A program made the translations under genes and the position numbers. Shown in pieces: positions 53,434 through 59,694 of a stretch of 64,000 nt of DNA. The DNA is taken from positions 1 to 64,000 of the forward strand of contig JACRPN010000022.1 of NCBI GenBank assembly GCA_016223145.1, in the 5' to 3' direction. The stretch's first letter is position 1, and every line of letters starts with the position of its first letter. Source of the DNA: Armatimonadota bacterium. GTDB lineage: Bacteria; Armatimonadota; Fimbriimonadia; Fimbriimonadales; Fimbriimonadaceae. Under the pieces are notes generated by a model. The model was given only the letters and a program-made list of their open reading frames with translations. It did no database searches and had not been told where the DNA came from.

Positions 53434-53619
53434 CTCCCCTTTGCGAACAACTGGAAACGGTGTAGCCCGGGCGTCCCGCCTGGGTGGATTCGGTTCAGCG
53501 ACTGAAGTCCCCGAGCCTCCCATTAGGACCCTCTTATCCCCAAACTTATCCACCTTTGAAGGGGGGAAAACTCCCCAGAAAATTGCTTGGTTCCGCGGGC
53601 CGTTCCTGATACTATATTC
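53434..53619. promoter_or_regulatory. Leader region upstream of the candidate structured RNA
   Basis: About 186 bases without a gene. An AT-rich patch with TACTAT (53610-53615) and the overlapping TATATT (53613-53618) looks like a -10 element for a rightward transcript. TTGCTT (53583-53588) and TTCCGC (53591-53596) are possible but poor -35 hexamers. Confidence 0.35.
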
Positions 53620-54135
53620 ATGCACTCAGCTCTGGAGGATTCGAGACGGAGCAGCCGCAGCGCCGGCAAAGGTGGAGACGACACTCCTTCCACCAGCGAG
53701 AGCAAAAAACGCCATCCCCGGCGCAGAGGGGATCGCCCGAAAGGGCGGCGGATCGTGACCTTCGGGAATCGACGAGCGGCAGCCGATCGCACCCTCGCGG
53801 GGCGGCTTGGATCAAAGCCCAGCGAGCGTAGCGGCAGAGAGCCAAGCTCCTGTCTGCCGCCAACGTGAGGCAACTGCGGCTTCCGCGCTCTACGGAGCGG
53901 GCTTCGGCCCAATCGGCAGAGCAGGTGGGCAGGAGAGAGCGAAAGCTACCTCCCGCCCACTGGAAAGCCGAATGTAGACTGAAGCGGACCAGTAGCGGAG
54001 CTCTCGGGCTCCTAAACCCAAGCAGGAAGTCTACAAGCCTTGGAGCCAAGGCTCCTTCGGGAGCCCCTCGCACTGAGGTTTGAGACGCGCCGACGCACGA
54101 GGCTTGCCTCACGCGGAGGCGCGTTTCGCTTTGTA
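53620..54135 (+). ncRNA. Candidate structured RNA of about 0.5 kb, family not recognised
   Basis: No protein-like frame, but at least eight strong stems in a row, several capped by stable tetraloops only on this strand. GGTGGA/TCCACC (53671-53694). ATCCCC/GGGGAT (53714-53733). CGCCC-GAAA-GGGCG (53734-53747). GCGGCAGA/TCTGCCGC (53831-53860). GTGGGC/GCCCAC (53925-53960), enclosing GGAG/CTCC and AGC-GAAA-GCT. TGTAGACT/AGTCTACA (53973-54035), enclosing GGAGC/GCTCC (53997-54012). GGCTCC-TTCG-GGAGCC (54050-54065). ACGCGCC/GGCGCGT (54085-54124), enclosing GAGG-CTTG-CCTC. A TTTCGCTTT stretch follows. I looked for RNase P, tmRNA, SRP and group I/II intron signatures and found none. Ends are approximate. 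Confidence 0.6.
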
Positions 54136-54145
54136 AGGAGGCATG

Positions 54146-54181
54146 TAGGACGTATAGGACTTATGGGACCTATACGTCCTA
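54146..54181. terminator. 13-bp perfect hairpin between the candidate RNA and fabH
   Basis: TAGGACGTATAGG (54146-54158), 10-base loop, CCTATACGTCCTA (54169-54181). It lies 9 bases beyond the fabH stop (minus strand) and just after the candidate RNA (plus strand), so it may be a bidirectional terminator. Neither side has a long T-run. Confidence 0.6.
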
Positions 54182-54189
54182 TCCTGCCA

Positions 54190-56845: not shown

Positions 56846-58192
56846 TTGAAGCGGTGGGCAATCCTTTTGACAGCGGCTACCATGGCCCTCGTTGGTTGCG
56901 GCGGCGTCGGACCCGGAGGCGGGGATGACGGCGGCGGCGGTGGTGGCGGTGGTGGGGGCGGCGCAACGCGCTCCTCCGTGAACTCGGGCCTCCTCGCCAA
57001 GAGCGGCGTTATTGACCTGACCGTCGACTCCGGCCAAGGACGAGCGCCGGGATCGCTCGTGGCCGTCTGGCGCCATCAAGAGTTCACCGATCTCTACGGA
57101 ACCGAAGAGACACAGCTCCGAGGGGAAGTTCGTATCGGGCTCGATCAATACACGACGAACTCGATGGAAGTTGCGATTCCGTTCAATATGTTCTCGCCGT
57201 GGGCTGCGAGCCGGTCGTTCGACGCTCTGCCCCTGGAAATCCAGAGCCTCAAGGTGGAGAACAACAGCGGTGGCTACGTGACGTACACCGGACCCGGTGG
57301 ACAGCCGTTCTTCATCGACTCTTTTGCGCTTCACGCGACCTCGATGCCTGGCCGCCGAACGGCAATCCAGATTTTCCTCGACGATGCGATGCTCGGAATC
57401 GACACGCAGGCCCAGCCGCCCGCGGCGACCTTCGACCGAGACCGATTTGAGGCCGTCAACTACCATCCGGAAGATCTGAGGATCAACGGTTGGCTGGCGG
57501 ATTACCTCTGCTTCGACATCTCGAACGTGGCCAACAAGCCTGAGTTCTCGGCGAGCGGCCCCTATTCGGGCGAGGATGTGACCAAGGTCTACTTCAGCGG
57601 CGATGCTTATGCCATCAGCGGCGACCCGGTGGTGGGCGGCGGCCCGATGGAGATCCTCACTCAGGGGACCTTCAATTTCGCGGCCAAGGTCTCGCCTCCA
57701 AACGGCACGATTGGCGCCCCGGGCACCTTCACGGTCCGCCAGGTGGACCCCCGCGATCTGAGCGGCATTGCCGAGATCACGGCGATCCAGGGTATCTGGC
57801 GGTTGTGGTTCGATCCGGTGCACCCAAACAAGGGTTACATTCTAAATCCGCAAGCATTCGAAGCCCTTTGTCTTCCGACAACCGAAGATGACGGCATCCA
57901 GGAGCTCATTCTGGTGGCCAGAAACTCAAGCGGTGAGATCACAGACCTCTATTTTGGAGAAATTGACTATACGAACAAACTGAACATGCACTTTTCCGCA
58001 TGGCCGATTGAGAACATAGACGATGGCTCAGATGACAACCGAATAGATGGCACGGTCAGCGGCCTCGTCTATAGAGCCGGCATTCAGGACCCAACAGACA
58101 AGGACATTCGATCAGGAACGATCACGATCACGTCTGGAACGCCCCCTGCGACGTTCCCCTCGATATCGACGTTCCTCGTCGTTCGTCTGTAA
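56846..58192 (+). CDS. Lipoprotein with poly-Gly linker, first gene of the proteasome operon
   Basis: A 448-residue lipoprotein starting at TTG (GAGGTG nine bases upstream): MKRWAILLTAATMALVGC, then GGVGPGGG and an uninterrupted Gly run of eleven. The remainder is beta-rich without a known motif (LVAVWRHQEFTDLYGTEE, GTFTVRQVDPRDLSGIAE, SGEITDLYFGEIDYTNKLN). Its stop overlaps the dop ATG (TAATG), so dop translation depends on this gene being read. I do not recognise a family. The reason for placing a surface lipoprotein in a proteasome operon is unclear. Confidence 0.75.
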   Translation: MKRWAILLTAATMALVGCGGVGPGGGDDGGGGGGGGGGGATRSSVNSGLLAKSGVIDLTVDSGQGRAPGSLVAVWRHQEFTDLYGTEETQLRGEVRIGLDQYTTNSMEVAIPFNMFSPWAASRSFDALPLEIQSLKVENNSGGYVTYTGPGGQPFFIDSFALHATSMPGRRTAIQIFLDDAMLGIDTQAQPPAATFDRDRFEAVNYHPEDLRINGWLADYLCFDISNVANKPEFSASGPYSGEDVTKVYFSGDAYAISGDPVVGGGPMEILTQGTFNFAAKVSPPNGTIGAPGTFTVRQVDPRDLSGIAEITAIQGIWRLWFDPVHPNKGYILNPQAFEALCLPTTEDDGIQELILVARNSSGEITDLYFGEIDYTNKLNMHFSAWPIENIDDGSDDNRIDGTVSGLVYRAGIQDPTDKDIRSGTITITSGTPPATFPSISTFLVVRL

Positions 58193-59694
58193 TGCGGCCG
58201 ATCCTCGCCGGCATCGAGACGGAGTACGGGCTCGAAGTCGAAGGCCAAGGGGCCGAGGATCAGATCGAAAACGCGAAAGCGCTTGTCCGGAGTTTTCCGG
58301 GCAAGCGCTTTTCTGGTTGGGACTACACCTATGAGAGCCCACGGGCCGATCTGCGCGGCTTCCAGGTTGGGCAACTGGCCATCGATCCTCAGGACGCGGC
58401 ATTCGACGTCGGCAAGGACCATGGACCCTCGGCCGACGTCAGGGCGGACCAGGTGCTGCCGAACGGCGCGCGCTTTTATAACGACCATGGCCACCCGGAA
58501 TGGTCTTCGCCCGAGTGCTGGACGCTCAAAGAGCTGGTTCTTCAGGACCTTGCCGGGGAGCAGGCTGCCATCCAAGCGGCCCGCGCCTACGGCGAAGCCA
58601 GTGGGCGAGAAGTACGGCTCTACAAGAACAACACCGACTTCCACGGCGCCTCGTTCGGCTGCCACGAGAGCTACCTCGTGCCGCGCAGGCACCGGTTCGA
58701 GGACCTCTATGCGGCGGTGATGCCGGTGCTGCTCGCCAGGACCCTGCTGTGCGGGGCTGGAAAGGTGGGATCAGAATCCGGGGGCAAGTGCGACTTCCAG
58801 CTCAGCCAGCGCGCCGACTTCATGTCGGTGGACGCGAGCGTGGACACCCTCTTCTGCCGCCCGGTCTTCAACACGCGCGACGAGCCCCACGCCGACGCCG
58901 CCCAGTGGCAGCGGCTGCATGTGATCTCGGGCGATGCCAACATGATGCCGACTTGCACGGCTCGAAAGGTCTGCCTGGTCAAGCTGGCCCTCTGGCTCTT
59001 GGACCTGGGCGAAGCGCCGCAATGGAAGATCAGGAACCCCGCTCGGGCGTTCCAAGAGGTCAGCCGTGACCTCACAGGTGCATGTCGTATTGAGCTCGAA
59101 GGCGGCAGTTGGACCACGGCCATAGAGATTCTGGAGAGCCTCTTCGCTGCGTTCGAGCGGTTCTATTTGGTGGGACACGACGCGAGGACAGTCTGGTCAG
59201 AAGAAGCAGCCCCTATCGTCTCCGAATCGAGAAAACTTCTCGACGCCCTTCAGAGCGATCAGACACAGCTTGTGCGATCCGTCGATTGGGCCGCGAAGAA
59301 GGCGATGCTGGAGGAGTACATGGAGGTCGAGCGTCTGACCTGGAAATCCAGGGACCTTCGCGCCTACGATCTGGCCTATCACCTTCTCGACTCCGACGAG
59401 GGGCTCTATTTCGCCTTGTTGCAGATGGGCCGCGTGGACCCAAGGCCGAGCCACGAGTCGGTGTTGGAACGGCTGGAGCGCTGCCACGAACCCTCGCGCG
59501 CCTTTGTGCGCGGCCAGGCCGTGACGGCGTTTCCAGAAGAACTAAGGGGCATCTCCTGGGGGGCCTTGAGCTTCGAGATGCAAGACGGCAGCCGCGAGGC
59601 GGTGACACTTTCGCCGGGACGGAGCTATTCTTGGGACCTGAAGGACTGCAGCGACGTAAAGAGCTTTATCGACGCTCTGAAGGAACAGCCATGA
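58192..59694 (+). CDS. dop: Pup/UBact deamidase and depupylase Dop
   Basis: A 500-residue enzyme of the glutamine-synthetase-like fold. In the family, Dop converts the C-terminal Gln of Pup to Glu and removes Pup from targets. Motifs: IETEYGLEVEG (metal-binding Glu near residue 9), WDYTYESPRADLRG with the essential Asp, LPNGARFYNDHGHPEWSSPEC, YKNNTDFHGASFGCHESYLVP, and FNTRDEPHADAAQWQRLHVISGDAN (family core, split here). Residues about 61-84 between DLRG and LPNGAR form the loop that distinguishes Dop from the ligase PafA. The start overlaps the lipoprotein stop; the end overlaps pup (ATGA). Confidence 0.93.
   Translation: MRPILAGIETEYGLEVEGQGAEDQIENAKALVRSFPGKRFSGWDYTYESPRADLRGFQVGQLAIDPQDAAFDVGKDHGPSADVRADQVLPNGARFYNDHGHPEWSSPECWTLKELVLQDLAGEQAAIQAARAYGEASGREVRLYKNNTDFHGASFGCHESYLVPRRHRFEDLYAAVMPVLLARTLLCGAGKVGSESGGKCDFQLSQRADFMSVDASVDTLFCRPVFNTRDEPHADAAQWQRLHVISGDANMMPTCTARKVCLVKLALWLLDLGEAPQWKIRNPARAFQEVSRDLTGACRIELEGGSWTTAIEILESLFAAFERFYLVGHDARTVWSEEAAPIVSESRKLLDALQSDQTQLVRSVDWAAKKAMLEEYMEVERLTWKSRDLRAYDLAYHLLDSDEGLYFALLQMGRVDPRPSHESVLERLERCHEPSRAFVRGQAVTAFPEELRGISWGALSFEMQDGSREAVTLSPGRSYSWDLKDCSDVKSFIDALKEQP

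Follow-up and report, generated by a model that had tools for sequence, protein, structure and literature searches.

A candidate family of large structured non-coding RNAs in Fimbriimonadaceae, with a promoter and terminator of its own

The stretch analysed here, called the window, comprises the first 64,000 nucleotides (nt) of contig JACRPN010000022.1 from an Armatimonadota bacterium of the family Fimbriimonadaceae. Its intergenic gap at 53434-54189, bounded by a CAP-domain gene (PF00188) on one side and by fabH, on the opposite strand, on the other, very probably harbours a stand-alone gene for a trans-acting, structured non-coding RNA (ncRNA) of about 510 nt (53620-54130, plus strand). Comparison of the related sequences reveals the signatures of a promoter and an intrinsic terminator belonging to this RNA, a modular fold and selection on base pairing, and in our judgement these sequences represent a new, previously undescribed family of large bacterial ncRNAs in Fimbriimonadaceae. 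The original prediction, made from the letters of the window, had postulated here, in a gap without a plausible protein, a plus-strand structured RNA of about 500 nt that belonged to no recognised kind. This is borne out: no Rfam family matches the RNA, its stems are kept by compensatory changes in related genomes, and the longest plus-strand frame has no Pfam match and is not conserved in relatives. The gene is slightly longer than the span first proposed, with the promoter beginning at 53587, a predicted start near 53620-53622, a terminator stem reaching 54125 and a T-rich tail reaching about 54133.

Selection on base pairing is seen first of all in a conserved core of 90 nt (53782-53871, plus strand), which was delimited with covariance models and by pair counts in 16 sequences. 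The closing helix P7 (53782-53789 with 53864-53871) encloses two adjacent hairpins, P8 (53794-53826) and P9 (53832-53859), whose loops bear CUUGG (53806-53810) and CCAAG (53842-53846), respectively. In the 16 core sequences 89.7% of the cells are paired, compared with 76.8% in shuffles; two-sided changes occur in 19 of the 30 pairs, the covariation score is 0.40 versus 0.17 in shuffles, and none of 500 shuffles reaches any of the five measures. The pairing falls to 28-47% when the partner is slid by one to three columns. The core alignment was fitted to the model and hence leans towards the structure; the helices are nonetheless visible in the raw sequences. Two-sided changes are also found in hairpin P3 of the 5' domain (5 of 6 pairs, seven sequences from four genera; by eye in the genus alignment, ggTGGA/TCCAcc becomes ggCGAA/TTCGcc) and in the 3' domain of g19 and g13, and the genus alignment as a whole contains 35 pairs with compensatory change. 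The complete 5' region aligns poorly between genera in MAFFT, and statements about it are limited to hairpins aligned by hand.

The same covariation bears on the notion that the transcript is a messenger RNA (mRNA) for a small leaderless protein, translated from an ATG at the transcription start. About half of the loci have such an ATG close to +1, and it opens frames of 82 amino acids in the window and of greater length in G002 and G063. However, L019, L023, L025, L029 and L033 have no ATG at that place, in L020 and L024 a stop follows at codon 2, and the core substitutions are distributed over the three codon positions as 9/5/6, with no preference for the third. The 82-amino-acid frame itself (ATG at 53620, the longest on the plus strand) lacks a Pfam match. 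Together with the covarying pairs, these features make a coding role extremely improbable.

Homologues of the RNA were sought with BLASTN and with three covariance models: R1, made for the 90-nt core, R3, built from the 16 core sequences, and R2, made for the 3' domain. BLASTN identified two genomes of the same genus (G001 and G002) in which the RNA again lies directly downstream of the same CAP gene. The R1 model detected matches outside the genus but within the family, with E-values to 1.8e-11, and R3 located the core in 15 Fimbriimonadaceae genomes from five genera at E below 1e-7; the best core E-values obtained with these two models reach 1e-21, and further R3 matches with E 0.09-0.9 were left out of the counts. 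No core was found by R3 in the remaining Armatimonadota genomes of the 291 searched, where a limited number of candidates was scored per genome, so that distant members may be missed. The DNA-pattern search over 84,980 species returned nine contigs, all apparently from Fimbriimonadaceae genomes, and the RNA was absent from the viral contigs, phages and plasmids searched (by BLASTN for plasmids and phages). It is mostly present in a single copy per genome, and its distribution is patchy even inside one genus. In genome G014 the core RNA is present twice, as the diverged copies L029 and L033. The R2 model adds a sixth genus, represented by G019, where a 318-nt variant (L037:1300-1680 after reverse complement) keeps the promoter, domain S9 and the terminator, has no recognisable core, and adjoins the same kinase gene as in the window. 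Several matches were rejected: a short BLASTN match in an unrelated region of G027 (L015), the R1 matches L031 and L032 (E 0.04-0.09), whose similarity to one another extends through what appears to be a protein-coding region, and, likewise, the R2 match L038.

The surroundings of the RNA are not conserved. The gene beyond it is fabH in the window, a citrate-synthase-like gene in G002 and transposase-like open reading frames in G001 (the latter two identities were assigned by eye); between genera the flanking genes vary, and those downstream are often convergent. Neighbouring genes were also considered as a clue to function, and none is common to most genera. This lack of conservation indicates a stand-alone gene rather than an element of an untranslated region, and the differing flanks across genera argue for a gene acting in trans. 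A long structured RNA that ends in an intrinsic terminator and lies in a gap beside genes could also be imagined as a cis-regulatory leader, riboswitch-like or an attenuator, of its neighbour. Against this stand the orientation of fabH in the window, the differing and often convergent downstream genes, among which no conserved co-oriented gene was found, and a promoter that appears dedicated to the RNA. The leader reading is thus largely refuted, and we give it hardly any credence.

Putative signals for transcription frame the RNA at both ends. All 17 homologous loci carry a sigma70-type promoter composed of TTGNNN (once TTTGAA), a spacer of exactly 17 nt and TANNNN, which in the window reads TTGGTT-N17-TACTAT (53587-53615, plus strand). 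The distance from the promoter to the core is 131-183 nt, measured to the S9 match in L037. A GC-rich, terminator-like hairpin with a T-rich tail ends every homologous locus (in L019 it was read by eye) except L024, in which no terminator was found; in the window this predicted intrinsic terminator, a CUUG-capped inner hairpin followed by the T-rich tail (54084-54133, plus strand), is supported by the loci of the relatives and by a consensus scan. The transcripts so predicted measure approximately 480-517 nt in most genomes and 318-406 nt in the short variants. The plus strand, first suggested because only its transcription would make these stems the stable forms, is established by the relatives. 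The promoter, the terminator and the two-sided changes agree with it, as does the fold of G002 (z = -7.2 on the plus strand versus -4.0 on the minus strand). For the window RNA, the folding energy on the plus strand is -246 kcal/mol (z = -4.6) and none of 100 dinucleotide shuffles folds as well, but the minus strand also has z = -4.6, and therefore the strand is not settled by the folding energy of this single sequence.

The predicted fold is modular, and the elements named in the original prediction were located within it. Individual folds suggest a 5' domain (53620-53704, plus strand) closed by helix P0 (TGC-CTC / GAG-GCA) around hairpins P1 (53629-53652), P2 (53654-53667) and P3 (53671-53694), the last with the conserved loop GACGNNANTCC. 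It is followed by the linker hairpins P4 (53714-53733), P5 (53734-53747) and P6, which together occupy 53714-53772 and have matching hairpins in the folded relatives. P5 is CGCCCGAAAGGGCG and carries one of the two expected GAAA tetraloops; the other is in GAGCGAAAGC, within the composite stem at 53925-53960, which is itself present as described. UUCG loops are located in GGGCTTCGGCCC and GGCTCCTTCGGGAGCC, and the CUUG loop in AGGCTTGCCT. Beyond the core, domain S8 (53877-53970, plus strand) consists of helix CGGCUUCC/GGAAAGCCG around two hairpins, one at 53887-53922 and the other the composite stem; the same three-way layout recurs in G002 with compensatory changes. Domain S9 (53974-54034, plus strand) consists of a long-range helix GUAGAC/GUCUAC inside which lie the invariant GCGGACCAGTAG and a hairpin; this is the long-range helix TGTAGACT/AGTCTACA that had been noticed in the area 53973-54035. 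S9 is matched by R2 in G000-G002 and G019 and was also aligned with L019 and L037. The folds of the window and G002 add S10, a long hairpin with a UUCG loop (54036-54081, plus strand). The series S8-S9-S10 belongs to the genus of the window, and g19 and g13 have another covarying domain in its place at the 3' side. The CUUGG and CCAAG loops of the core could form 5 base pairs in all 15 scoreable sequences, one of them through G-U. The self-complementary GUAC loop in the 3' domains of g19 was considered as a dimer contact; it is GCAC in L029, and the proposal is not supported.

Comparison with known RNAs places the new RNA outside the described families. The window RNA and 14 relatives gave no match in Rfam (Rfam 15, 4227 families) at gathering or permissive thresholds, and the one tRNA match, on L037, is a genuine neighbouring tRNA. 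A search of the literature found no paper naming or describing this RNA. It shares with the housekeeping RNAs (RNase P RNA, transfer-messenger RNA (tmRNA), signal recognition particle (SRP) RNA and 6S RNA) the form of a stand-alone structured gene with its own promoter, mostly one per genome, and its length is within the range of some of them, which might suggest a highly divergent member of that set. The original prediction had recognised neither RNase P, tmRNA, SRP RNA nor an intron, and Rfam agrees. The RNase P RNA of the genome (RF00010; C5:341716-342148, E 3.1e-41) and its tmRNA (RF00023; C5:298911-299261) are located elsewhere; the window contains no RNase P match, and ARAGORN found no tmRNA near the locus. 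No Rfam model, SRP and 6S included, reports the locus or the 14 relatives with E up to 5-10, where the search for SRP and 6S RNA covered the window and those relatives rather than the rest of the genome. Given that the distribution is also patchy, unlike that of an essential RNA, a housekeeping identity is highly improbable.

The large ornate RNAs OLE, ROOL and GOLLD, known to occur, in the case of ROOL and GOLLD, in phages and prophages, are the nearest in kind. Like them, the new RNA is hundreds of nucleotides long, stand-alone and non-coding, with several domains, a predicted loop-loop contact, no assigned function and uninformative neighbours, and one may ask whether it too works by self-assembly. 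Kissing loops and homo-oligomers have been reported for these RNAs (PMC12286853). On the other hand, their covariance models match neither the window nor the 14 relatives, the family as a whole conserves no palindromic loop, and the RNA is missing from the phages and viral contigs searched, unlike ROOL and GOLLD. It differs from all three in being lineage-restricted and chromosomal, and in having a core of two adjacent, putatively kissing hairpins within one closing helix. Membership is therefore not supported, and we consider a self-assembling ornate RNA unlikely, less so than a housekeeping RNA. Lineage-specific candidate motifs from comparative genomics offer another parallel, with covariation in one bacterial lineage and function unknown, whereas the present RNA is not among the 4227 Rfam families.

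A mechanism may be proposed for this stand-alone, trans-acting RNA. A dedicated DNA-binding protein, bound at an upstream site, would control the promoter from which RNA polymerase produces a discrete transcript. The RNA would fold to a compact particle locked by the CUUGG:CCAAG contact between the loops, and it would act in trans, most likely either by scaffolding a ribonucleoprotein or, as a regulatory RNA, by binding a cellular protein and controlling it; the function would reside in the core, with the 3' domains as exchangeable modules. Several points weigh against this interpretation. The choice of role is much less certain than the existence of the gene. The promoter scan at standard thresholds does not call the window promoter, so that its identification depends on conservation, and the discrete transcript is likewise deduced from the conserved promoter and terminator. 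The loop-loop contact is suggested by conservation and complementarity, because a nearly invariant pair cannot be tested by covariation; for many pairs beyond the core the comparison comprises only two effective sequences; and the patchy distribution within one genus implies that the RNA can be dispensed with over evolutionary time. Few large structured bacterial RNAs are known apart from the housekeeping ones, and several of them had an unexpected architecture. The present family would enlarge this group with an example from a poorly studied phylum that combines strong covariation and a compact core with modular 3' domains and an operator of its own. A complete genome of 5.23 Mb (G063) contains one of the relatives, and hence a cultured host may be available.

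The putative operator is a paired TTATCCACA...TGTGGAAAA-like site, found in most relatives directly upstream of the -35 box. In the aligned upstream regions the window shows TTATCC(C/A)C repeats and G(T/G)GGAAAA (53533-53576, plus strand); this copy is degenerate and fails the strict pattern, as do g12, g13 and g15. Within 231 kb of flanking sequence the paired pattern is found only at these promoters, and genome-wide it occurs about once per genome in ten ncRNA-bearing genomes, with one extra site in G076. An operator with one site per genome would help to identify the regulator and, through it, the function. The words of the site resemble DnaA boxes; in G063 and G002 no TTWTNCACA cluster is present close to dnaA at the ends of the contigs, and therefore the identity of the site as a DnaA box is unproven.

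Two genomes without the core RNA, G067 (L103:3500-4690) and G068 (L104:5700-6200, minus strand), contain tandem arrays of a different RNA-like unit of approximately 230-350 nt. Most copies have a TTATCCACA/TGTGGATAA palindrome, and all have, by eye, a sigma70-type promoter and an apparent terminator; similar repeats are present in G080 (L106/L108/L111), which likewise lacks the core RNA. The same palindrome with a third box is located upstream of ftsZ in G078 (L086:1501-1524; ftsZ was identified by eye from the protein sequence), which suggests a connection with the cell cycle. Tentatively, one may imagine in Fimbriimonadaceae a regulated RNA system specific to this lineage, in which one TTATCCACA/TGTGGAAAA operator, DnaA-box-like and used almost only here, would drive the 500-nt kissing-hairpin RNA in some genomes and the 230-350-nt tandem arrays in others of the same genus. 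Both RNAs would then be parts of a single pathway, perhaps coupled to the replication or division cycle via DnaA because the palindrome precedes ftsZ in one genome; we regard this as a doubtful possibility, though less remote than any of the alternative identities considered above.

Two observations concern other features. The RNase P RNA of G000 scores 129 bits, compared with 224-323 in relatives, and has 433 nt versus approximately 327 nt in two genomes of the same genus. The window also contains, at 58192-59694, a gene for Pup ligase (PF03136, E 1e-129), a proteasome-tagging enzyme best known from Actinomycetota.
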